This document shows, one piece after another, positions 40,376 through 52,304 of a stretch of 60,033 bases of DNA. The stretch covers positions 1-60,033 of the forward strand of contig CAMDXM010000003.1 of the NCBI GenBank assembly GCA_945878025.1, given 5' to 3'. Source of the DNA: Pseudorhodoplanes sinuspersici. Its GTDB lineage: Bacteria; Pseudomonadota; Alphaproteobacteria; Rhizobiales; Xanthobacteraceae. Each line of letters starts with the position of its first letter. The first letter of the stretch is position 1. Position numbers and translations under genes: made by a program. The notes below the pieces were generated by a model. It was not told where the DNA came from. It worked only from the letters and a program-made list of their open reading frames with translations, and did no database searches.

Positions 40376-41455
40376 TTGGCGTCGCACGATATTCCGATCG
40401 GCACATCGCAGGTCACGCTCGCCCAGTTGAGCGAGCGGTCGCGCGAGATTTTCCGCCAGATCGTCGAGAGCTATCTTGCGACCGGCGAGCCGGTCGGTTC
40501 GCGCAACGTGTCGCGCATTCTGCAGATGTCGCTGTCGCCGGCTTCGGTCCGCAACGTGATGTCGGACCTCGAGCAGCTCGGCCTGATCTATGCGCCGCAT
40601 ACCTCGGCTGGACGGCTGCCGACGGAAATGGGCCTTCGCTTCTTCGTCGACGCGCTGATGGAGATCGGCGACCTCAACGAGAATGATCGCCGCTCGATCG
40701 AAGGGCAGGTGGCGGCGACCGGGACCTCGGTTGAAAATCTTCTGACCCGGGCCTCAGGCCTGTTGTCCGGATTGACGCGCGCGGCCGGCGTCGTGCTCAC
40801 CGCCAAGCTCAATGTACGCCTCAAGCATATCGAATTCGTGCGTCTCGAGCCGGAGCGCGCGTTGGTCGTGCTCGTCGCCGAAGACGGGCAGGTGGAAAAT
40901 CGGATCCTGGCCATCCCGGCCGGCCTGCCGAGTTCGGCGCTGACCGAGGCCTCCAACTTTCTCAACGCGCGCATTCGCGGCAAGACGCTGAACGACGCCC
41001 GTTCGGAACTCGAAAATGCGCTCGAGGCCAGCCGCGCCGAGCTCGATCAGCTCACGCAAAAAATCGTCTCGGCCGGTCTCGCAAGCTGGTCGGGCGGGGG
41101 CAGTGACGAGCGCAAATTGATCGTGCGCGGACAGGCGCATCTGCTCGAGGACCTCCATGCGCTGGAGGATCTCGAACGCGTGCGGCTTCTGTTCGACGAT
41201 CTGGAAACCCGCCGCGAGGTGGCCGATCTCCTTGGCCGGGCGGAACGGGCCGAAGGCGTGCGCATCTTCATCGGTTCGGAGAACAAGCTGTTCTCGCTGT
41301 CCGGTTCCTCGACCATCGTCGCGCCCTATACCGATTCGTCCGGTCAGATCGTCGGCGTCCTGGGGGTGATCGGGCCGACACGGCTCAACTATGCCCGTAT
41401 CATCCCGATGGTCGATTACACCGCCAAGGTGGTGAGCAAGCTCCTGGCGGGATAA
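40376..41455 (+). CDS. hrcA: Heat-inducible transcriptional repressor HrcA
   Basis: '[75 protein letters not shown]'; precedes grpE. TTG start. Confidence 0.98.
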
Positions 41456-41553
41456 ACAAGCTCTTGGCCTGATGAACCTGTGCGCTTGATTTTTTCCTCC
41501 GCAATCCTGATATGCGTGGCATCACGCGAACCATTTGAACGGGACTTCACGTT

Positions 41554-42192
41554 ATGACGGACACCGACGGGCCGCACGACAAGGCCCCTGGATCCGAAGC
41601 CAACGCGCCACAGCAGGCTCCGGCGGCTGGCGCGGCCCCGGAAGCGCCGGCTGATCCGCTGGCCGCCGCCCAGCGCGAGGCGGCCGAATTGAAGGACAAG
41701 CTGCTGCGCACGCTCGCCGAGATGGAGAATCTGCGCCGGCGGACCGAGCGCGAAGTGGCCGATGCGCGCGTCTATGGCATCGCGTCCTTCGCGCGCGACG
41801 TGCTGACCGTCGCCGACAATATGGAACGCGCCCTGCAGGCTCTCGACAACGAGTTGCGCGAGAAGGCCGATCTCCTGATCAAGGGATTGCTGGATGGCGT
41901 CGAATTGACCGAGCGCGAATTGCTCAAGGCGCTTGAGAAAAACGGCATCAGGAAAATCGAGCCGAAGGGCGAGAAATTCGATCCGAATTTCCATCAGGCG
42001 ATGTACGAGGCGCCGGACGCGTCGGTCCCCGTCGGCCATGTCGTGCAGGTCGTGCAGCCGGGCTACACCATCGGCGAGCGTGTGCTGCGGCCCGCTTTGG
42101 TCGGCGTGTCGAAGGGCGCGCCGAAAACGAGTGTGCAGACCGAAAGCAACAGCACAGGCGCGGGCTCCAGCGCCAGAAACGCGGATTCCTAA
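41554..42192 (+). CDS. grpE: Nucleotide exchange factor GrpE
   Basis: '[47 protein letters not shown]...[13 protein letters not shown]...[19 protein letters not shown]'. Confidence 0.98.
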
Positions 42193-42674
42193 GCGCGCAG
42201 GCCTTCGACCGCATTGCGATCAAGCGTTCGCCGGAGCGAGTCGGTCCATTCCGCAATAAGCGACAGCAGCAAATTCCGCCACGGTTCGGCTCGCCCTGAT
42301 ACAGGGTCGAGCGTCACCGACCATTCGATGAAGGTGCGCGCTCCGTCCACGACCGGAAGCAGTTGCATCGTGCCTTCGTAACGGGTGCGGGCCGGTGTTT
42401 CGCATACCGCGCCAGCCGGAACTTCGAACGGGTCGATTCCGACATAGGTGAGGAAACGCTGATCGTCGGAATGCGCGCCAAGGCGCTGCCGGATCCGGTT
42501 GCCGCCGTAATGAAAGCAACGCACGGCTCCAACCTCGTCGCCGCGCCCGTCATCCTCGATGACGCTTTCGGTGACGCCGTCGATGTAAACCGGGTAGTTG
42601 TTGAAATCGCGAATGAGTGACCACACCGTTTCCACGGGATGGTCGAGGACGGTGCTGTAATAGGCTGCGGTCAT
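42189..42674 (-). CDS. SRPBCC family protein
   Basis: '[50 protein letters not shown]', START/SRPBCC-like. Confidence 0.88.
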
Positions 42675-42805
42675 CCTTTGCTCCGGGATGCTGGAGATCT
42701 CGATCTAGGCCGCCGCGATGCGGCACGACACCCGTTTCCTGCGCCCGAAACGGGCGAAAGTTCCGATTTACCGACCATTTACATGCCGTCTGTAAGTCTT
42801 GAGCG

Positions 42806-44053
42806 ATGGCGTGGGAATCCTTCGATGTCGCATCGTCACAGCCGGCGCAGGATCCATGGCGCGGGCAAGCGACCCGTTATCTCGAAATCCTGAGCTTCGT
42901 TTTCTTTATCGTCGCCGCGACCCTCTATGTGACATCGATCGCATGGACGCTTCCGCTGCCGCGCGATTACACGACGCTCGCGGTCGGCCGCGACTTCCTG
43001 AATTTCTGGATGTATGGACGCGCGGCGTTCGAGTCCGATCCTGGCCGCTTTTACGACGTCGCGATCTATAACGGCGTATTGCGCGCGCTTGCCGGCGGCA
43101 ATTATCCCGGACAGACTTGGTCCTATCCGCCGAGCGTCATGCTCGTTGCATGGCCATTCGGATCGTTGAGCTATCTGCAGGCGCTCGCGGCATGGACAAC
43201 CGGCGGCGTGGCTTTCCTTCTTTGGGCCGCGAGCCGGCTGCTGGCCGATCGCAGGCTTCTCGCGGCTCTGATCGTCTCGCCCGCCGCCATCCTCTGTCTG
43301 ATCTCGGGCCAGTTCTCATTCCTGACGGCGGGGATGATGATCCTGATTTTCGTCTGGCTGGATCGCAAACCGGTAGTCGCCGGAATCCTGATCGGGCTCC
43401 TGGTGATCAAGCCGCAGCTCGGGCTGTTGTTTCCCGTCATCCTGATCGCGTCCGGGCGCTGGCGCGTCTTTTCGGCCGCCGCGCTTACGGTCCTTGCGAT
43501 CACGTTCGCCACCGCCGCGATTTTCGGCCCGCAGGTCTGGATCGACTACATCTCAATCGGGCTGCCAAACCAGAATCTCGTTCTGATCGAACCGTATCGG
43601 CTGGGCGCTCCGCTGATGCCCACGATCTTCATGAATGCGCGCTGGCTGGGCGCCAATTACGCCACGGCGATGGCCATTCAATTGTGCTTCACGGCATTCG
43701 CCGCCGCGGCATTGTTCTGGGCCTATCGATATCGCAAGGACGCCGATCCCTGGCTGCTCGCCACCCTGTTTTTCGCGTGCTCGGTCTGCGGCTCGCCTTA
43801 TCTGATGTCCTACGATCTCCTGCCGATGACGTTCGCCGCCCTGCTGCTCCGCTCGAGCAGCAGGCTCGATGCGCAGGGGCACAGGCTCGCGGTTCTGGTT
43901 TATTGGCTGCCGCTCATTCAGTTCGCGCTCGGCCAGTTCTATCTGCCGGGCGCAGCGCTGATCGCGCCCGCTTTCGCGCTTTACCTTGTCGCTTTGCTGA
44001 AAGATTCGTCCCGCGGAGTGTCGTTGCCGTTCCCGGCGCCGGCGCGATCCTGA
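42806..44053 (+). CDS. GT87/DUF2029-like polyprenyl-phosphate-dependent glycosyltransferase
   Basis: 'GRDFLNFWMYGRAAFESDPGRFYDVAIYN...WSYPPSVMLVAWPFGSL...IKPQLGLLFPVIL'; multi-TM GT-C-like. Confidence 0.82.
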   Translation: MAWESFDVASSQPAQDPWRGQATRYLEILSFVFFIVAATLYVTSIAWTLPLPRDYTTLAVGRDFLNFWMYGRAAFESDPGRFYDVAIYNGVLRALAGGNYPGQTWSYPPSVMLVAWPFGSLSYLQALAAWTTGGVAFLLWAASRLLADRRLLAALIVSPAAILCLISGQFSFLTAGMMILIFVWLDRKPVVAGILIGLLVIKPQLGLLFPVILIASGRWRVFSAAALTVLAITFATAAIFGPQVWIDYISIGLPNQNLVLIEPYRLGAPLMPTIFMNARWLGANYATAMAIQLCFTAFAAAALFWAYRYRKDADPWLLATLFFACSVCGSPYLMSYDLLPMTFAALLLRSSSRLDAQGHRLAVLVYWLPLIQFALGQFYLPGAALIAPAFALYLVALLKDSSRGVSLPFPAPARS

Positions 44054-44056
44054 CGG

Positions 44057-45217
44057 TCAGCGCGGCACGACGCCGTCGCGCACCGCGCGAAAGCGCGTGA
44101 AGGAATCCTGCCATTTCTCGCGCGGCGATATGCCGACGACATGAATGAAGCTCGTGGCGCCGAACCGCACCCATTGCACCACGTTCACGTCCTTGCCGGT
44201 TTTCGCGGATTTGGCCTCGAGACGGATCTCGTAACCCGGCAATGCCCCGATCCGCATCGATTCGGCGAATGTGGTGCGCACGTCCTTCAATCCGGGCATG
44301 GCGCCGATCAGCTGCTCGGCGAAACGCGCGCGCTCGGCCGCTTGCGCCGGAGCGCCGGGATTGATCGACACAATGACCTCGGCCTCGTCGCCCGGCGCGT
44401 CGGCCGCCTTGTCGAGCGGCTTGTCCGTCTTCGACGCGGCGTTCGGTTTCTCTTCGTCGCTGAGCAGCACGCCGCGCCCGCCCGCGATCGGACGCAAGGT
44501 CCGGAAATTCGCAAGCTCGGTGACGCGGAACGGCAGCAGGCTCAGGATTTCGTCGTTGGGAACCTGGTCACGGAAGCTCAGCGTCGCGAACATCTTGCGC
44601 ATCGATGCGTCATTATAGGTCGCCTTGGCCGCATCCGGCACGATGGCGGTGATGAGCGCGGCGAAGTCCGTTCCGGCTTTCCATGTCACGAGCATCCATT
44701 TGCGGACCTTCGCACCCTCGTGCTCCTGATTTGCCGATATGAGATGCGCGGCTCCGCTCGCGGTCAGCAGAATTTCACGCTTGATGTTCGATACGCCCTG
44801 CGCGGCGCCGGGCGGCGCCTGCATGGACTTGAGCGTCGCCTCGTAGGCCTGCGCGGGCAATTCGGCCACCACGATCGCGACCTTGTTGGCGCTGTCCTCG
44901 AATCCGGGAAACGTCCGGCTGGTCTCAAGACCTGTGGATGGCGAAAGCCCGATCCGGGAGCCTTTGGGGAAGACCGGATCGGCGGCCTGCGCCTGCGCGC
45001 ACAGCACGACGCCCAAGAACGCCAATGCAAGGAATGCTCTGAATGCCAAGATAATGTCCTCGATGCATGAGGCCCGGATGACCGCCGCGCGGAAGGTGTA
45101 GGGAATGAGGTATGGAGCCTGGGCTTGCTCCGTCAAGGTGCCTTCGTGCGGTATGTGATGATTTGTCCCGTTCAGACAGCGGCTTTTGCAAGCGGATTGA
45201 GCCGGCTTTGCGGCCAT
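44057..45217 (-). CDS. Secreted protein of unknown function (true start probably internal, near the signal peptide)
   Basis: Signal-like 'ILAFRAFLALAFLGVVLCAQAQAADPVFPKGSRIGLSP'; no family recognised. Confidence 0.7.
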   Translation of the reverse strand: MAAKPAQSACKSRCLNGTNHHIPHEGTLTEQAQAPYLIPYTFRAAVIRASCIEDIILAFRAFLALAFLGVVLCAQAQAADPVFPKGSRIGLSPSTGLETSRTFPGFEDSANKVAIVVAELPAQAYEATLKSMQAPPGAAQGVSNIKREILLTASGAAHLISANQEHEGAKVRKWMLVTWKAGTDFAALITAIVPDAAKATYNDASMRKMFATLSFRDQVPNDEILSLLPFRVTELANFRTLRPIAGGRGVLLSDEEKPNAASKTDKPLDKAADAPGDEAEVIVSINPGAPAQAAERARFAEQLIGAMPGLKDVRTTFAESMRIGALPGYEIRLEAKSAKTGKDVNVVQWVRFGATSFIHVVGISPREKWQDSFTRFRAVRDGVVPR

Positions 45218-45236
45218 TAAGTGAAACGCAACCGAG

Positions 45237-47030
45237 TTGGTTCAAGGCTTGCGGATGCTCAAAGCAACGCCCGAAACCGGCCGGCGTCCTTATCCGTTCG
45301 CGGCGTATTTCGCGGCCGCGTTGGCTGCGATTATCGCCGGGCTTTTGATTCAGAACTGGAACAATACCGGCCGCACGCTGGTCGATACCGACGACGCGAT
45401 GCGGCTCGCGCAGATGCGCGACTGGCTCGCGGGCCAGGGCTGGTTCGATCTTCAACAGAAGCGGATGGCGCTGCCCTATGAGTCGCATTGGTCGCGTCTG
45501 GTGGACGCAGGGCTCGCGGGCGTCTTTCTGTTCTTCAATGCATTCGCCGACCACGCGCTGTCGGAGCGGCTTCTTCGCGTGACATGGCCGCTGCTGTTCA
45601 TCGCGCCGGCGCTCGCCGGCATGGCCGCGATCGCCTGGCGGCTCGCGGGGCGCGAAGCCGCATTGCTCGCTCTCCTGCTCGCGGTCGCGGGCGTTCCCGC
45701 CTATCAGCAATTCACGCCCGGCCGCATCGATCACCACAATGTCCAGATCGCGGTGACGATCCTGACCCTCGCCGCCGTCGTCTGGTCGGATCGTGTGCGC
45801 TGGTGCGCGATCGCAGCGGGCGCCTTGACGGGGCTCGGTCTCGCGATTGGATTTGAAGGACTGCCTTATCTCGCGGCCTGCGGCGCGGCTCTTGCGGTGC
45901 GTTATGTAGTCGATGCGGGGTCCGCCGGTGTCATGCGCCGCTACGGATGGTCGCTCGCCGCAGGCGTCATCGCCGCATTTCTTGTCGGCGTTGGTCCCGC
46001 GCATTGGACGCGCGCGCTTTGCGACAATCTCGCGTTCAATTCGGCTGCGGCGGTCGCGGCCGGAGGCATCGTGCTGGCGGCCGCGGCTTCGCTTCCGGGC
46101 AAAACCGTCATGGCTCGCGGCGCGGCTTTGATTGCGTCCGCGATCGCGGCGCTTGCGATCCTGATCGCAAGCGAGCCGCGCTGTCTGGCCGGGCCTTACG
46201 CCATGGTCGATCCCGCGATCTGGCCGATCTGGCTCGCCGATGTGCGCGAGAACCAGCCGCTGATCCATGTGCTGTCGGAAAATCCGCTTACCGGCGTTGC
46301 GATCGCGGCGTTTCCGTTCGCCGCGTTAATAGCGGGATTCATGCTCGCTCGCGACGGGGACATCCGCCGGCACTTCGCATATCTGGCGGCAGGCGCGATT
46401 TTTCTGATTGCCGTCGCGACGATGATTCTCGCGATCCGCGCCTATTCCTATGCCATGTGGCTCGGCATGCCGCTGATGGCCGCCGCCGGAATGAAATTGT
46501 TCGTAATGCTGCATCTGACAACCTTGCGGGCGCGATTGATCGCCGGATTGTTCCTGACGCCGCTCGCGCTCTCCTCCGGCGCGATCACGGTTGCGGTGGC
46601 CGCCGGCTTCGACGACAAAAACAGCTTCGCGCGGCTGGAAAGCAAGCAATGCTTCCGTAACGAGGCTTATGCGCCGCTGGCAACGCTTCAGCCCGGTCTC
46701 GTCGTCGGCGATGTCAGTTACGGGCCGTTCGTTCTGGCGCTGACGCCGCACCGGATCGTGTCGGCGCCCTATCATCGTTTCTCCGCCGGCATCATCGCGG
46801 CCTATCGCGCCATGACCTCGCCATCTGAGACGTCGCGCGAATTGCTGCGGCGTTTGGGTGCGGATTATGTCGTCATTTGCGGGCCGCGCCCGCCGGCAGG
46901 ACTTGTCGAGCCAGAACGCAGCGCGAGCCTGTGGGGAGAACTCCGCGCCGGTCATGTACCGGACTGGCTTGAGGCATTGCCGCAGGCAGACAGCAGGCAG
47001 GCATTCAACATCTATCGCGTGAAGCGATAG
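45237..47030 (+). CDS. STT3/AglB/PglB-like GT-C membrane protein, copy 1 (function unknown)
   Basis: 'LVDTDDAMRLAQMRDWL', 'QQFTPGRIDHHNVQIAV', 'WLADVRENQPLIHVL', C-terminal 'VVGDVSYGPFVLALTPHRIVSAPYHRFSAGIIAAYRA...LLRRLGADYVVICG'. Confidence 0.72.
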   Translation: MVQGLRMLKATPETGRRPYPFAAYFAAALAAIIAGLLIQNWNNTGRTLVDTDDAMRLAQMRDWLAGQGWFDLQQKRMALPYESHWSRLVDAGLAGVFLFFNAFADHALSERLLRVTWPLLFIAPALAGMAAIAWRLAGREAALLALLLAVAGVPAYQQFTPGRIDHHNVQIAVTILTLAAVVWSDRVRWCAIAAGALTGLGLAIGFEGLPYLAACGAALAVRYVVDAGSAGVMRRYGWSLAAGVIAAFLVGVGPAHWTRALCDNLAFNSAAAVAAGGIVLAAAASLPGKTVMARGAALIASAIAALAILIASEPRCLAGPYAMVDPAIWPIWLADVRENQPLIHVLSENPLTGVAIAAFPFAALIAGFMLARDGDIRRHFAYLAAGAIFLIAVATMILAIRAYSYAMWLGMPLMAAAGMKLFVMLHLTTLRARLIAGLFLTPLALSSGAITVAVAAGFDDKNSFARLESKQCFRNEAYAPLATLQPGLVVGDVSYGPFVLALTPHRIVSAPYHRFSAGIIAAYRAMTSPSETSRELLRRLGADYVVICGPRPPAGLVEPERSASLWGELRAGHVPDWLEALPQADSRQAFNIYRVKR

Positions 47031-47095
47031 GCCTTATGGCGTCGTGGCCGAGAAGTTAAGCGATCCTCAACGCTCTTGCGCCAAGAGAATGCGTC

Positions 47096-48913
47096 ATGAC
47101 ACGGCGGATCGCGCAGTCTCAATCCGGACCCTCAATGTCTCGCGGCCAGATGCGGCCGCCGGTTTTCGCCATTCTCCTTGCACTGGCCTGGCTGCTCGTA
47201 GCCGGACAATTGATCGCGGAATATTGGCCCGCGACCGCGTTCACCATGCCCGACGCCGACGACGCGATGCGGCTCGTCGAATTGCGCAAATTTCTTTCGG
47301 GCGGTCTCGCCGCCTGGTTCGATCTGCATGAACCGCGTCTCGGATTGCCTCCCGGTTATGACTCGCATTGGTCGCGTCTGGTCGATGCCGGTCTCGCGGG
47401 CATGTTTCTGCTGTTTCGCGTCTTTGCGGATAACACGCTTGCTGAGCGGCTGATGGCGGCCGTCTGGCCCGTGCTTTGGCTCATTCCGGTGATTGGCGGC
47501 GCGGCCGCGATCGCGTGGCGGCTCGCCGGACGCGAGGCGGCCATCATCGTTCTCCTGCTTGCGGTTTTCTCCGGTCCCGGCATCCAGCAATTCCGGCCCG
47601 GCCGCATCGACCATCACAATGTACAGATCGCCTTGTCGATCCTCGTGGTCGCGGCGGCGGTGTGGTCGGATCGCGTGCGCTGGTGCGCCATCGCGGCGGG
47701 TGCGCTCACGGGATTGGCGCTCGCCATCGGTTTCGAAGGATTGCCGTTTCTGGTTCTGTGCGGCGCGGCCTTCGCGCTGCGTTTCGTATTCGATGGTCGC
47801 GGCCGGGAGGAATTGCGGGACTATGGCCTCGCGCTCGCCGCCGGCACATTCGCCGCGTTTCTTTTGAGCGTGCCGCCGGGCCGATGGATGGCGCCGGTCT
47901 GCGACGCGATCGCCATCAACTCGGCCGCGGCGGTGACGATGACAGGCCTTGGCCTCGCGCTCGCGGCAAGCCTGCGCGGCGCAAATTCACGTGCGGTGCG
48001 ACTGGCGCTCGCCTCCGCGCCCGGCGCACTGGCAATCGCGATCTTCGTCATGATCGAGCCGCGCTGTCTCGGCGGGCATTATGCGCTGGTCGATCCGGCC
48101 GTGCGGCCGATCTGGCTCGACAATGTTTCCGAAACGCAGCCTCTCACCGACCTGTTCCGGCAGGCGTCTGCGACCGCTCTCGCGACGGCGGCCTTTCCGG
48201 CTGCGGCACTGGCGGCCGCTCTGATGCTGATGCGCGAGAAAAATCTCTATCGCGGCTTCGGCTCGCTCACCGCGCTCGCCGCTTTGCTGATGGCGTTGGC
48301 GTATATGATCGCCGTGGCGCGCGGCTCTTCTTACGCGATCTGGCTCGGCATGCCCATTGTCGCGGCGGCCATGTGGCAACTCTTCACGCTGATGGAGCTC
48401 GACAATCTCGCCGTCCGTTTCGCGGCGGCGTTGTTCGTGACCCCGACGGCGCTGACGCTCGGCGCCATCACGCTCGCCTCGGCGGCGGGCCAGCCGGAGC
48501 TTGCCAATCTCAATCCGTCGGAACGCGCCGGCTGCATCGCAAAGCCGAATTATGCCGCGCTTGCGAACCTTGCCCCCGGGCTGATGGCGATCAACGATCT
48601 GGAATGGGCGCCCTATATGCTCGCCTGGACGCCGCATTCGGTCCTGGCTGCGCCCTATCACCGGCTGTCGCCGTCCATCGTCCTGTCGTACCGGATTTTC
48701 GCGGCATCGCCGGACGAGGCCCGCAAACTCGCGGCGCAAGCCGGCGTGGCCTATATCGTCCTGTGCGGACAGCGCGGGACCGCGGGGCTTTCGGAGCGGG
48801 AGCGCAGGCTAAGTCTCTGGGCCGGTCTGCAATCCGGCCGCGCGCCGGGCTGGCTCGAACCGGTCCGGCAAGAGGGGGTCTCTGGCTTCCGGGTTTGGCG
48901 GGTGAGAGGTTAG
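47096..48913 (+). CDS. STT3/AglB/PglB-like GT-C membrane protein, copy 2 (tandem paralog)
   Basis: 'MPDADDAMRLVELRKFL', 'QQFRPGRIDHHNVQIAL', 'WLDNVSETQPLTDLF', 'MAINDLEWAPYMLAWTPHSVLAAPYHRLSPSIVLSYRI...AGVAYIVLCG'. Highly similar to copy 1. Confidence 0.72.
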   Translation: MTRRIAQSQSGPSMSRGQMRPPVFAILLALAWLLVAGQLIAEYWPATAFTMPDADDAMRLVELRKFLSGGLAAWFDLHEPRLGLPPGYDSHWSRLVDAGLAGMFLLFRVFADNTLAERLMAAVWPVLWLIPVIGGAAAIAWRLAGREAAIIVLLLAVFSGPGIQQFRPGRIDHHNVQIALSILVVAAAVWSDRVRWCAIAAGALTGLALAIGFEGLPFLVLCGAAFALRFVFDGRGREELRDYGLALAAGTFAAFLLSVPPGRWMAPVCDAIAINSAAAVTMTGLGLALAASLRGANSRAVRLALASAPGALAIAIFVMIEPRCLGGHYALVDPAVRPIWLDNVSETQPLTDLFRQASATALATAAFPAAALAAALMLMREKNLYRGFGSLTALAALLMALAYMIAVARGSSYAIWLGMPIVAAAMWQLFTLMELDNLAVRFAAALFVTPTALTLGAITLASAAGQPELANLNPSERAGCIAKPNYAALANLAPGLMAINDLEWAPYMLAWTPHSVLAAPYHRLSPSIVLSYRIFAASPDEARKLAAQAGVAYIVLCGQRGTAGLSERERRLSLWAGLQSGRAPGWLEPVRQEGVSGFRVWRVRG

Positions 48914-48955
48914 GGAAAATTCTCCAGGCCGCCCCGCGCGGAGCGCTCACAAGTC

Positions 48956-48983
48956 CTTGCGGCTCAAGGGCTGCCTCCTATAT
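48956..48983 (+). promoter_or_regulatory. Putative dnaK promoter (CTTGCG-N16-CTATAT)
   Basis: -35 CTTGCG (48956-48961), 16-nt spacer, -10 CTATAT (48978-48983); resembles rhizobial housekeeping promoters of CTTGAC-N17-CTATAT type. Confidence 0.5.
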
Positions 48984-49128
48984 GAGCCATAACACCGCAG
49001 GGGCCTGCGGTGACGTATTTACGAGGGGGTCGGAGAGGAGTTCCGCGGGACGCTTCCGCGAGATTTCCTTCGTCCGGGCGCCGGCTCAAGGGCTCGGCCG
49101 ACCTGCCTGAAAGAAAGGGATTAGAAAC

Positions 49129-51054
49129 ATGGCTAAGGTCATCGGTATCGACCTCGGCACCACCAATTCGTGCGTCGCCGTGATGGAAGGCAAGACCCCC
49201 CGCGTCATCGAAAATGCGGAAGGCATGCGCACAACGCCCTCGATCGTCGCGTTCACGGACGATGGCGAGCGGCTGGTGGGCCAGCCGGCGAAACGCCAGG
49301 CGGTCACCAACCCGGAAAAGACCATCTTCGCGGTCAAGCGCCTGGTCGGACGGCGCTACGACGACCCGATGGTCGAGAAGGACAAGAAGCTCGTTCCCTA
49401 CAAGATCACCAAGGCCGCCAATGGCGACGCCTGGGTGGAAGCAGACGGCAAGACCTATTCGCCTTCGCAGATTTCCGCCTTCATTCTGCAAAAGATGAAG
49501 GAGACGGCGGAAGCCAATCTCGGGCAGAAGGTCGAGCAGGCCGTCATCACCGTTCCCGCGTATTTCAACGACGCCCAGCGTCAGGCCACCAAGGACGCCG
49601 GCAAGATCGCCGGCCTCGAAGTGCTGCGCATCATCAACGAGCCGACCGCGGCCGCGCTCGCTTACGGTCTCGACAAGGCGAAGCAGGGCACCATCGCGGT
49701 CTATGACCTTGGCGGCGGCACCTTCGATATTTCAATTCTGGAAATCGGCGACGGTGTGTTCGAGGTGAAGTCCACGAACGGCGATACGTTCCTGGGCGGT
49801 GAAGACTTTGACATGCGTCTGGTCGAATATCTCGCGGCCGAGTTCAAGAAAGAGCAGGGCATCGACCTCACCAAGGACAAGCTCGCTCTGCAGCGGCTGA
49901 AGGAATCCGCCGAGAAGGCCAAGATCGAATTGTCGTCCACGACGCAGACCGACATCAACCTGCCGTTCATCACGGCGGATGCGTCCGGTCCGAAGCATCT
50001 CACGATGAAGCTCACCCGCGCCAAGTATGAAGCGCTGGTCGACGACCTGATCCAGAAGACGGTCGAGCCATGCCGCAAGGCATTGCAGGACGCCGGGCTC
50101 TCCGCGGCCGAGATCAACGAAGTGGTTCTGGTCGGCGGCATGACCCGCATGCCGAAGGTGCAGGAAGTCGTGAAGCAGTTCTTCGGCAAGGAACCGCACA
50201 AGGGCGTCAACCCGGATGAAGTGGTCGCCATCGGCGCCGCGATCCAGGCCGGCGTTCTGGCCGGCGACGTCAAGGACGTGCTGCTGCTCGACGTCACGCC
50301 GCTCTCGCTCGGCATCGAAACGCTTGGCGGCGTGTTCACGCGCCTGATCGACCGCAACACCACGATCCCGACCAAGAAGAGCCAGGTCTTCTCCACCGCC
50401 GACGATAATCAGGGCGCGGTGACGATCCGGGTCTTCCAGGGCGAACGCGAAATGGCCGCCGACAACAAGATGCTCGGCCAGTTCGATCTTGTCGGTCTAC
50501 CTCCTGCCCCAAGAGGAGTGCCGCAGATCGAAGTCGCCTTCGACATCGACGCCAACGGCATCGTGAATGTCCATGCCAAGGACAAGGGCACCGGCAAGGA
50601 ACAGCAGATCCGCATCCAGGCCTCCGGCGGTCTCTCCGAATCCGACATCGAGAAGATGGTGAAGGACGCGGAGGCGCATGCCGAAGAGGACAAAAAGCGC
50701 AAAGCCGCCGTTGAAGCCAAGAACCACGGCGAGGCGCTCGTGCACGCGACCGAGAAGGCCCTGTCCGAACATGGGTCCAGGGTTGGCGAGGCTGAGCGCA
50801 GCGCGATCGAGAATGCGCTCGCGGATCTCAAGGAAGCCCTGAAGGGCGACGACGGCGCCGCCATTCAGGCCAAGACCAATACGCTGGCGCAGGCGTCGAT
50901 GAAGCTCGGCGAGGCGATGTACAAGCAGCAGCAGGGCGGATCGGATGATTCCGATACGCCGGGCGGCGCGGCCGGGGCCAAGCAGGATGACGTGGTTGAC
51001 GCGGAATTCACCGAGGTCGATGACGACAAGAAGAACAGCAAGAAATCGGCCTGA
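49129..51054 (+). CDS. dnaK: Molecular chaperone DnaK (Hsp70)
   Basis: '[21 protein letters not shown]', '[38 protein letters not shown]', '[40 protein letters not shown]'. Confidence 0.99.
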
Positions 51055-51098
51055 TCGTTTGCTGCGAGGCCTGCATGGTCATCATTGCACTCAAATCA

Positions 51099-51127
51099 CA
51101 AACCCCCGGGCGCAATCCGGGGGTTTG
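51099..51127 (+). terminator. Intrinsic terminator-like hairpin between dnaK and dnaJ
   Basis: CAAACCCCCGG-GCGCAAT-CCGGGGGTTTG: perfect 11-bp stem. Confidence 0.75.
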
Positions 51128-51161
51128 TCTGTCCAAAACCGCGCGACGCTGACGGCAGAAC

Positions 51162-52304
51162 ATGTCCAAACGCTGCTTTTACGAAACCCTGAGTGTCTCG
51201 CGCACGGCGAATGACGGCGAACTGAAATCCGCCTATCGCAAGCTCGCGATGCAATGGCATCCCGACCGCAATCCGGGCGACAAGGATTGCGAACACAAGT
51301 TCAAGGAAATCAACGAGGCCTATGACGTGCTCAAGGACGGCGACAAGCGCGCCGCCTATGACCGTTTCGGCCATGCCGCGTTCGAGAACGGCCACGGTGC
51401 GAGCGCGCAGCACGGCTTCGGTTCCGATTTTGCGTCCGCCTTTTCCGACATCTTCGAAGGCGTGTTCGGCATGGCCGGCGCGCGCAGCGCCGGGCGTTCG
51501 GGGCGCGAGCGCGGCGCGGATCTGCGTTACAATATGGAGATCACGCTCGAGGATGCCTATCACGGCAAGGCCGCCGAGCTGCGCATCCCAACCTCCGTTA
51601 CATGTGAAACATGCTCCGGCACGGGCGCGAAAGCCGGCACCAAGCCGAAGACCTGCGCGGCCTGCGCGGGCGCCGGCAAGATCCGGCACGCGCAGGGCTT
51701 CTTCACCCTGGAGCGCACCTGCCCGTCATGCCATGGACGCGGTCAGGTGATCGACGATCCCTGCAAGTCGTGCTCGGGTTCCGGCCGCGTGACGCGCGAA
51801 CGCACCTTGTCCGTGAATATTCCAGCCGGCGTCGAGGACGGCACCCGGATACGGCTGGCGGGCGAAGGCGAAGCCGGCTTGCGCGGCGGGCCCGCGGGCG
51901 ACCTCTATATTTTTCTGTCCCTGATCTCGCATCCGTTATTCCAGCGCGACGGCGCCGACCTGCATTGCCGTGTGCCGGTGTCGATGGTGACAGCGGCTTT
52001 GGGCGGCGAGTTCGAAGTCCCGACCATCGAGGGGGCGAAAAGCCGGGTGAAAGTCCCCGGCGGCACCCAGTCCGGCCGGCGCTTCCGGCTGCAAAGCAAG
52101 GGTATGCCGGTGCTGCGTTCGAAACAGCTGGGCGACATGTATGTCCAGGTGGTGGTCGAAACGCCCCAGAATCTGACGAAAAAGCAGAAGGAATTGCTGT
52201 CGGAATTCGAAAAACTGTCCTCCACGGAAACCCAGCCCGAATCGACGAGCTTCTTCTCACGGGTCAAGGAGTTGTTTGACGGGCTTGGAACACGGACACC
52301 GTGA
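51162..52304 (+). CDS. dnaJ: Chaperone DnaJ
   Basis: J domain '[35 protein letters not shown]', zinc fingers '[28 protein letters not shown]...[24 protein letters not shown]'. Confidence 0.98.

Follow-up and report, generated by a model that had tools for sequence, protein, structure and literature searches.

To our knowledge, STT3-type enzymes, which have a GT-C fold, are known for a single reaction, the N-glycosylation of sequons. In AglB of A. fulgidus, an archaeal oligosaccharyltransferase (OST), three residues bind the metal: D47 in the first DXD motif, and D161 and H163 in the second, which reads Asp-His-His. E360 of the TIXE motif acts through water molecules (PMC8342417). In Haloferax, glycan assembly on dolichol phosphate begins with AglJ, and AglB moves the glycan to Asn (PMC3871713). 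Use of a lipid-phosphate-linked monosaccharide by an STT3-like fold has its nearest precedent in the tryptophan C-mannosyltransferase DPY19, which has no metal site (PMC10154233). Systems composed of a donor synthase, a flippase and a GT-C enzyme have also been described (PMC11127046). Here we analyze two tandem genes, copies A and B, located on a 60,033-nucleotide stretch of the Pseudorhodoplanes sinuspersici draft genome (GCA_945878025.1, contig CAMDXM010000003.1, positions 1 to 60,033; hereafter the window). Their products belong to a family that is a variant of the STT3-type GT-C enzymes and that has gone unrecognized in annotation and in the open-licence literature. Alignments and predicted models show that these proteins have the hallmarks of STT3-superfamily GT-C enzymes with a complete set of OST-type catalytic residues, but without the Trp that reads the sequon. 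No earlier description of an alphaproteobacterial STT3/PglB-like family was found in the open-licence literature, so that one may exist elsewhere.

The first-pass annotation of the window had described two neighbouring open reading frames (ORFs) of ~600 aa sharing near-identical blocks. Both ORFs are present, at the coordinates listed in Table 1, on the same strand and separated by 65 bp; the encoded proteins are 50% identical over a full-length alignment (E 2e-176). The start codon of copy A is uncertain, and may be the TTG at 45237 or the in-frame ATG at 45255 (residue 7). All of the quoted blocks were recovered (DDAMRL, SHWSRLVDAGLAG, PGRIDHHNVQIA, DVRENQPL/NVSETQPL, DVSYG/DLEWA and LGADYVVICG, the last in copy A only), and an alignment of 81 family members shows that they did not arise by chance.

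Relatives were collected by a pattern-plus-tblastn scan of GTDB genomes, which gave 121 confirmed relatives and returned 80 loci. The analyses below are based on an alignment of 81 members, on 109 non-redundant members, on 124 sequences in all and on 60 loci dereplicated at 70% identity; residues are numbered according to copy A. The relatives at the 80 loci are 26-54% identical to copy B, and nearly all of them come from named or probable Alphaproteobacteria, including Rhodoplanes, Bradyrhizobium, Rhizobium, Agrobacterium, Methylobacterium, Shinella, Caulobacteraceae and Rhodobacteraceae; the family is large and also includes a Sphingomonas member. When 290 genomes from across the class were searched with a profile, 45 proved to contain the family. 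A third copy was not found in the source genome (a 3.94 Mb draft in 365 contigs), and further tandem copies occur at six other loci (L047, L056, L137, L142, L143 and L163). In a FastTree phylogeny of the 124 sequences copy A falls among orthologues from related genera that lie next to dnaK, whereas copy B clusters with L003 (support 0.994). Because the two copies group with different relatives, the tandem pair reflects an old duplication and not a recent one. The duplication noted at this locus is real, but it is old and the family is not particular to the window. The copies are old paralogues that probably differ in acceptor position or in sugar.

In the databases, homologues go by the name 'hypothetical' or 'AcrB/AcrD/AcrF family protein'. 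The latter name, given in RefSeq to the Sphingomonas homologue WP_347092546.1 (NZ_CP155751.1, L175:4875-6644), is a misannotation; this gene adjoins a divergent GtrA gene, beyond which lies a methyltransferase gene. In a few class members (L104, L108 and L140) the matched stretch contains an in-frame stop, pointing to decayed copies, to the end of the gene or to assembly errors. A paper on the Bradyrhizobium exopolysaccharide gene blr2358 concerns an unrelated phosphoglycosyltransferase.

The residues expected for an OST-type metal site are near-invariant, in agreement with the claim that the acidic, His and Glu residues would be conserved among homologues. Besides the positions for which counts are given in Table 1, D165, H166 and H167 are kept in 105, 106 and 107 of the 109 non-redundant members, respectively, and position 401 is either Arg or Lys in all of them. 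D52, H84, D165, H167, E338 and R/K401 occur together in 109 of the 124 sequences. The residues preceding E338 are not strictly TIX or SVS in most members. As a comparison set we used eight Pseudomonadota STT3-like proteins with WWD or LWD (L084-L091), obtained by a phylum-level PF02516 scan. Alignment by hhalign with WWD-bearing STT3s of the gammaproteobacterial type pairs D52 with D78, D165 with D187, H167 with D189, E338 with E316 and R401 with R374, such that the partners of D165 and H167 are both acidic residues of DTD. Metal dependence is thus suggested by the identity of these residues. As for the comparison set itself, its members are non-alphaproteobacterial proteins of about 690-820 aa that are probably true bacterial N-OSTs outside the Campylobacterota. 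Four conserved cysteines, C262, C316, C472 and C548 of copy A, may form disulfides, perhaps including a tether between the C-terminal dome and external loop 5 (EL5) as reported for DPY19.

The WWDYG motif, which the first-pass annotation considered to be replaced, is indeed missing: neither of its Trp positions (492/493) carries a Trp in any of the 124 sequences. The Gly of the motif is retained in 85 of 109 members and the third position is Asp in 34 of 109. Since this defining motif was tested and is absent, we did not assign the family to the OSTs. The loss of WWD indicates that the acceptor is probably not a sequon, which supports the non-sequon acceptor suggested earlier.

Kinship with STT3, AglB and PglB, also claimed before, is borne out by the ranking of fold searches. 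The AlphaFold2 models of both copies have very high confidence (pLDDT values in Table 1) and predict a GT-C fold with a C-terminal periplasmic domain that is nearest to OST structures. When searched against the PDB, the model of copy A gave yeast STT3 (E 9e-12) and AglB (E 3e-11) as top matches, and that of copy B gave AglB (7e9s, E 2.5e-13). For both copies these were followed by human STT3, DPY19 (E about 1e-9, TM-score 0.62-0.63) and PglB (E about 1e-6 to 1e-8), with ArnT, AftA, AftD and ALG12 trailing at E about 1e-5 to 1e-4 and lower TM-scores. For the two models, TM-scores were 0.32-0.47 with ArnT/AftA versus mostly 0.6-0.68 with AglB/STT3. The best structural match is therefore not to the ArnT/PMT/GT83 group, an outcome that would have spoken against the first-pass annotation: AglB, STT3, DPY19 and PglB matched at E 1e-6 to 1e-13, compared to 1e-5 or weaker for ArnT and AftA.

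Sequence comparisons point in the same direction. The NCBIfam model of archaeal STT3, TIGR04154, is matched by 36 of the 81 aligned members (best E 7.3e-14), and the only matches of the family profile among all PDB sequences are two AglB C-terminal domains (E 0.01 and 0.29); in this match WWDYG of AglB (3vgp) is aligned with 'xxxxG' of the family, which sets the register. Pfam PMT_2 is matched by four of the 81 members (best E 1.2e-5). Single window proteins are nearly without Pfam or NCBIfam matches, and the kinship surfaced on scanning the whole alignment. A PF02516 scan of copies A and B gave no match for either, a phmmer search of the PDB with copy A gave no relevant match, copy B scores 17.2 bits against a TIGR04154 cut-off of 450, and the curated cut-offs of PF02516 and TIGR04154 are not reached. 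In global mode, hhalign scored the family at 24.7 against the WWD/LWD-bearing STT3s versus at most 7.5 against PMT, GT87 and reversed controls. We take this profile-profile alignment as support for the register of the motifs, not as proof of kinship.

The gene context points to a polyprenyl monophosphate donor. An AglJ-like GT2 gene is directly adjacent in 19 of the 60 dereplicated loci, and it also adjoins the divergent members L124-L127, L148 and L163. Within three genes of a family member we found GtrA (12/60), a small ArnE/F-like (SMR) flippase (7/60), a PRK07208 flavoprotein (16/60) and GT87 (5/60), and at least one module gene is present within this distance at 38 of 60 loci. A representative neighbouring GT2 matches AglJ (TIGR04182) over its full length with E 3.5e-61 (second-best model 7.7e-17), a representative SMR flippase matches ArnE with E 5e-14, and Pfam GtrA and EamA matches were obtained among the neighbours. 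Across the class, an AglJ-like GT2 (E 1e-45) is present in 27 of 45 family-positive versus 28 of 245 family-negative genomes (odds ratio 11.6, Fisher p 1e-11, without correction for shared ancestry). The lipid-linked glycan donor that had been postulated would accordingly be narrowed to one carried on polyprenyl monophosphate; a pyrophosphate-linked oligosaccharide is not supported, with AglJ-like GT2s and monosaccharide-type flippases recurring near the family. A GT2 or flippase gene adjoining copies A and B was not found in the window, and the source genome contains one GtrA gene. The PRK07208-type FAD oxidoreductase (at L010:5812-7338 and other loci) may modify a lipid-linked or nucleotide-linked sugar.

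Among the described systems, archaeal AglB (A. fulgidus 7e9s/3wak; TIGR04154) is close to the family and shares with it the GT-C fold with a C-terminal globular domain, the Asp of the first DXD, the Asp-His-His of the second, the Glu of EL5 and the conserved Arg that follows. The adjacent or co-occurring AglJ-like GT2 (TIGR04182) likewise has its counterpart in the haloarchaeal lipid-monophosphate system. The family differs from AglB however in being bacterial, in lacking both Trp residues of WWDYG, in its shorter C-terminal domain and in the presence of two further conserved motifs, HWSR and YHR, and of conserved Cys residues, and its scores are far under the cut-offs of TIGR04154 and TIGR04182. 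PglB (C. lari 5ogl) and L084-L091 belong to the same fold family and their five catalytic residues align, but L084-L091 keep a W-D-x-G core (WWD or LWD), pass the PF02516 cut-off and have a longer C-terminus. DPY19 (7zlh) is structurally similar and uses the type of donor suggested for the family, a polyprenyl-phosphate monosaccharide; it is metal-independent and lacks the metal ligands (PMC10154233), whereas the alphaproteobacterial family keeps all of them. Because WWDYG is absent, and DPY19 has no metal site, the family is neither OST nor DPY19. Finally, the putative logic of donor synthase, flippase (GtrA, SMR or MATE) and GT-C enzyme would be that of Gtr-type and GT136 three-component systems (PMC11127046), although no STT3 relationship has been reported for the GT-C component of those systems and the donor of GT136 is ribofuranose derived from PRPP (phosphoribosyl pyrophosphate).

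On this basis we consider it probable that copies A and B are metal-dependent GT-C enzymes of the OST type that transfer a single sugar or short glycan, carried on polyprenyl monophosphate, to a non-sequon acceptor in the cell envelope. An AglJ-like GT2 would load the sugar onto polyprenyl phosphate in the cytoplasm, and a GtrA or SMR flippase would carry the polyprenyl-phosphate sugar outward. A divalent metal, which would be held by D52, D165 and H167 with the aid of E338 and R401, would then activate the leaving phosphate, and the STT3-like enzyme would pass the sugar, or the short glycan, to an acceptor in the periplasm that lacks an N-X-S/T sequon. That this acceptor would belong to the envelope is suggested by the loss of WWD and by what three-component systems usually do in Gram-negative bacteria (PMC11127046). 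The most likely candidate is a glycolipid or polysaccharide of the envelope, for instance lipopolysaccharide, a protein being less likely. We lean, if only slightly, towards the broader view that the family represents a branch, in bacteria, of the superfamily of N-glycosylation enzymes. It would have kept the OST metal chemistry and dropped sequon recognition, would work with an AglJ-type lipid-monophosphate sugar, and would constitute an evolutionary counterpart of AglJ-AglB and a new GT-C family that is widespread in Alphaproteobacteria. An OST active site without a sequon pocket suggests that the choice of acceptor is exchangeable on a fixed catalytic core, and the family offers a naturally occurring means of testing which roles WWD and the lipid pyrophosphate play. 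It probably adds an unrecognized layer to the cell envelope of bacteria that live with plants or in soil, and the question can be tested directly in genetically tractable members.

Several observations weigh against this assignment. Pfam STT3 (PF02516) is matched by one of the 81 members only, at E 0.082, and hhalign in local mode gave no clear separation (35.7 for STT3 versus 36.7 for one GT39-like pair and about 31.5 for reversed controls). The co-occurrence statistic for the AglJ-like GT2 ignores phylogeny, 18 of the 45 family-positive genomes lack such a gene at E 1e-45, and that of the source genome is on another contig than copies A and B (C8:27741-28733, L172:7742-8734; divergent from a gene that reads by eye as a polyprenyl synthetase). 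Moreover, AglJ-like GT2s are widespread beyond the range of the family (plasmids of Enterococcus, Nocardia, haloarchaea) and may serve other GT-C enzymes.

Two alternatives involve glycosylation of proteins. Given that DPY19 is among the nearest folds and that the context suggests a monophosphate donor, the family might transfer a monosaccharide from polyprenyl phosphate to a side chain of secreted proteins (C-linked to Trp or O-linked to Ser/Thr), as DPY19 or PMT enzymes do. We regard this as unlikely, because the near-invariant metal set contrasts with the metal-independent DPY19, which lacks these ligands (PMC10154233), and because a recurrent substrate protein was not identified among the neighbours. 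Somewhat more doubtful still is the version of the first-pass annotation, a true OST that would transfer a pyrophosphate-linked oligosaccharide en bloc to proteins with another recognition motif. The OST-like fold and metal site are in line with it, DPY19 is an example of an STT3-like enzyme that glycosylates proteins via another motif (PMC10154233), and an AglJ-like GT2 can initiate an oligosaccharide on a single lipid phosphate, as in Haloferax (PMC3871713). The neighbours nevertheless indicate monophosphate carriers and flippases of the monosaccharide type (ArnE-like, GtrA), and among the conserved ones neither a PglC/WecA-type initiator nor an oligosaccharide flippase nor a series of glycosyltransferases was found to recur.

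It is very improbable that the proteins are lipid A or core sugar transferases of the ArnT/PMT/GT83 type whose resemblance to STT3 arose by convergence of loop motifs. Bactoprenyl-phosphate-GalA lipid A transferases, RgtD/E/F, do exist in Alphaproteobacteria, homologues of this galacturonosyl system occurring in Caulobacter and Oligotropha (PMC7663294), and the ArnE-like neighbour and the PMT_2 matches fit such a role. ArnT and AftA, however, trail AglB/STT3 by about 4 to 8 orders of magnitude in the fold search, with the lower TM-scores given above; fewer members match PMT_2 than TIGR04154 (4 versus 36), and the family profile finds the C-terminal domain of AglB. The fold thus largely refutes this explanation, although lipid A could still be the acceptor, which would be compatible with the favoured OST-type transfer from a monophosphate. 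An RND/AcrB-type or other transporter, implied by the RefSeq name of WP_347092546.1, has a negligible probability and was rejected: ACR_tran is matched by none of the 81 members and no RND structure appeared in the fold search.

Table 1. Positions in the window of copies A and B, their motifs and the genes next to them
Feature	Coordinates	Strand	Basis
Copy A, STT3-superfamily GT-C enzyme (predicted) without WWD, 597 aa	45237..47030	+	ORF; family alignment; AlphaFold2 model, pLDDT 94.7
Copy A D50-T-D-D53, first DXD equivalent (EL1)	45384..45395	+	D52 108/108; aligned to first-DXD Asp of WWD-bearing STT3
Copy A H84-W-S-R87 block, first periplasmic loop	45486..45497	+	W85/S86/R87 invariant in 81-member alignment; H84 101/109
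Copy A D165-H-H167, second DXD	45729..45737	+	same as Asp-His-His of A. fulgidus AglB (PMC8342417); STT3 alignment
Copy A V-R-E338, EL5 TIXE/SVSE Glu	46242..46250	+	E 105/109; aligned to E316 of L086
Copy A R401, counterpart of conserved post-EL5 Arg of STT3/PglB	46437..46439	+	R98/K11 of 109; aligned to R374 of L086
Copy A D492-V-S-Y-G496, WWDYG position	46710..46724	+	register from AglB 3vgp versus family profile
Copy A Y512-H-R514, family-specific motif of periplasmic domain	46770..46778	+	Y106/H104/R97 of 109 (H513 104)
Copy B, second STT3-superfamily GT-C enzyme (predicted) without WWD, 605 aa, ATG start	47096..48913	+	AlphaFold2 model, pLDDT 93.7; top PDB match AglB 7e9s, E 2.5e-13
Copy B D53-A-D-D56, first DXD equivalent	47252..47263	+	family alignment
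Copy B H91-W-S-R94 block	47366..47377	+	family alignment
Copy B D172-H-H174, second DXD	47609..47617	+	family alignment
Copy B V-S-E346, EL5 Glu	48125..48133	+	family alignment
Copy B R409	48320..48322	+	
Copy B D501-L-E-W-A505, WWDYG position	48596..48610	+	family alignment
GT87-family GT-C enzyme, same-strand neighbour	42806..44053	+	Pfam GT87, E 2.3e-32
Exported protein, family not recognized, encoded divergently from copy A; its place beside the cassette is conserved in close relatives (12 loci)	44057..45217	-	probable signal peptide by eye; no Pfam match

The GT87-like neighbour noticed in the first-pass annotation is genuine, and GT87 genes also neighbour family members at L003, L007, L018 and L044, but this proximity is restricted to the few dereplicated loci counted above. 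The exported-protein family 'exp44k' lies within three genes of a family member in 8 of the 60 dereplicated loci. In the window (40376-52304) the chaperone genes hrcA/grpE and dnaK/dnaJ flank the glycosyltransferase cassette. A CIRCE (controlling inverted repeat of chaperone expression) heat-shock operator, sought in the window in view of the location between grpE and dnaK, was not found, and promoter and terminator scans gave chance-level results only. The chaperone-flanked cassette, often including the conserved exported protein, is shared by many related genera and is also present at L004, L006, L007, L010-L012, L014-L018, L027 and L037.

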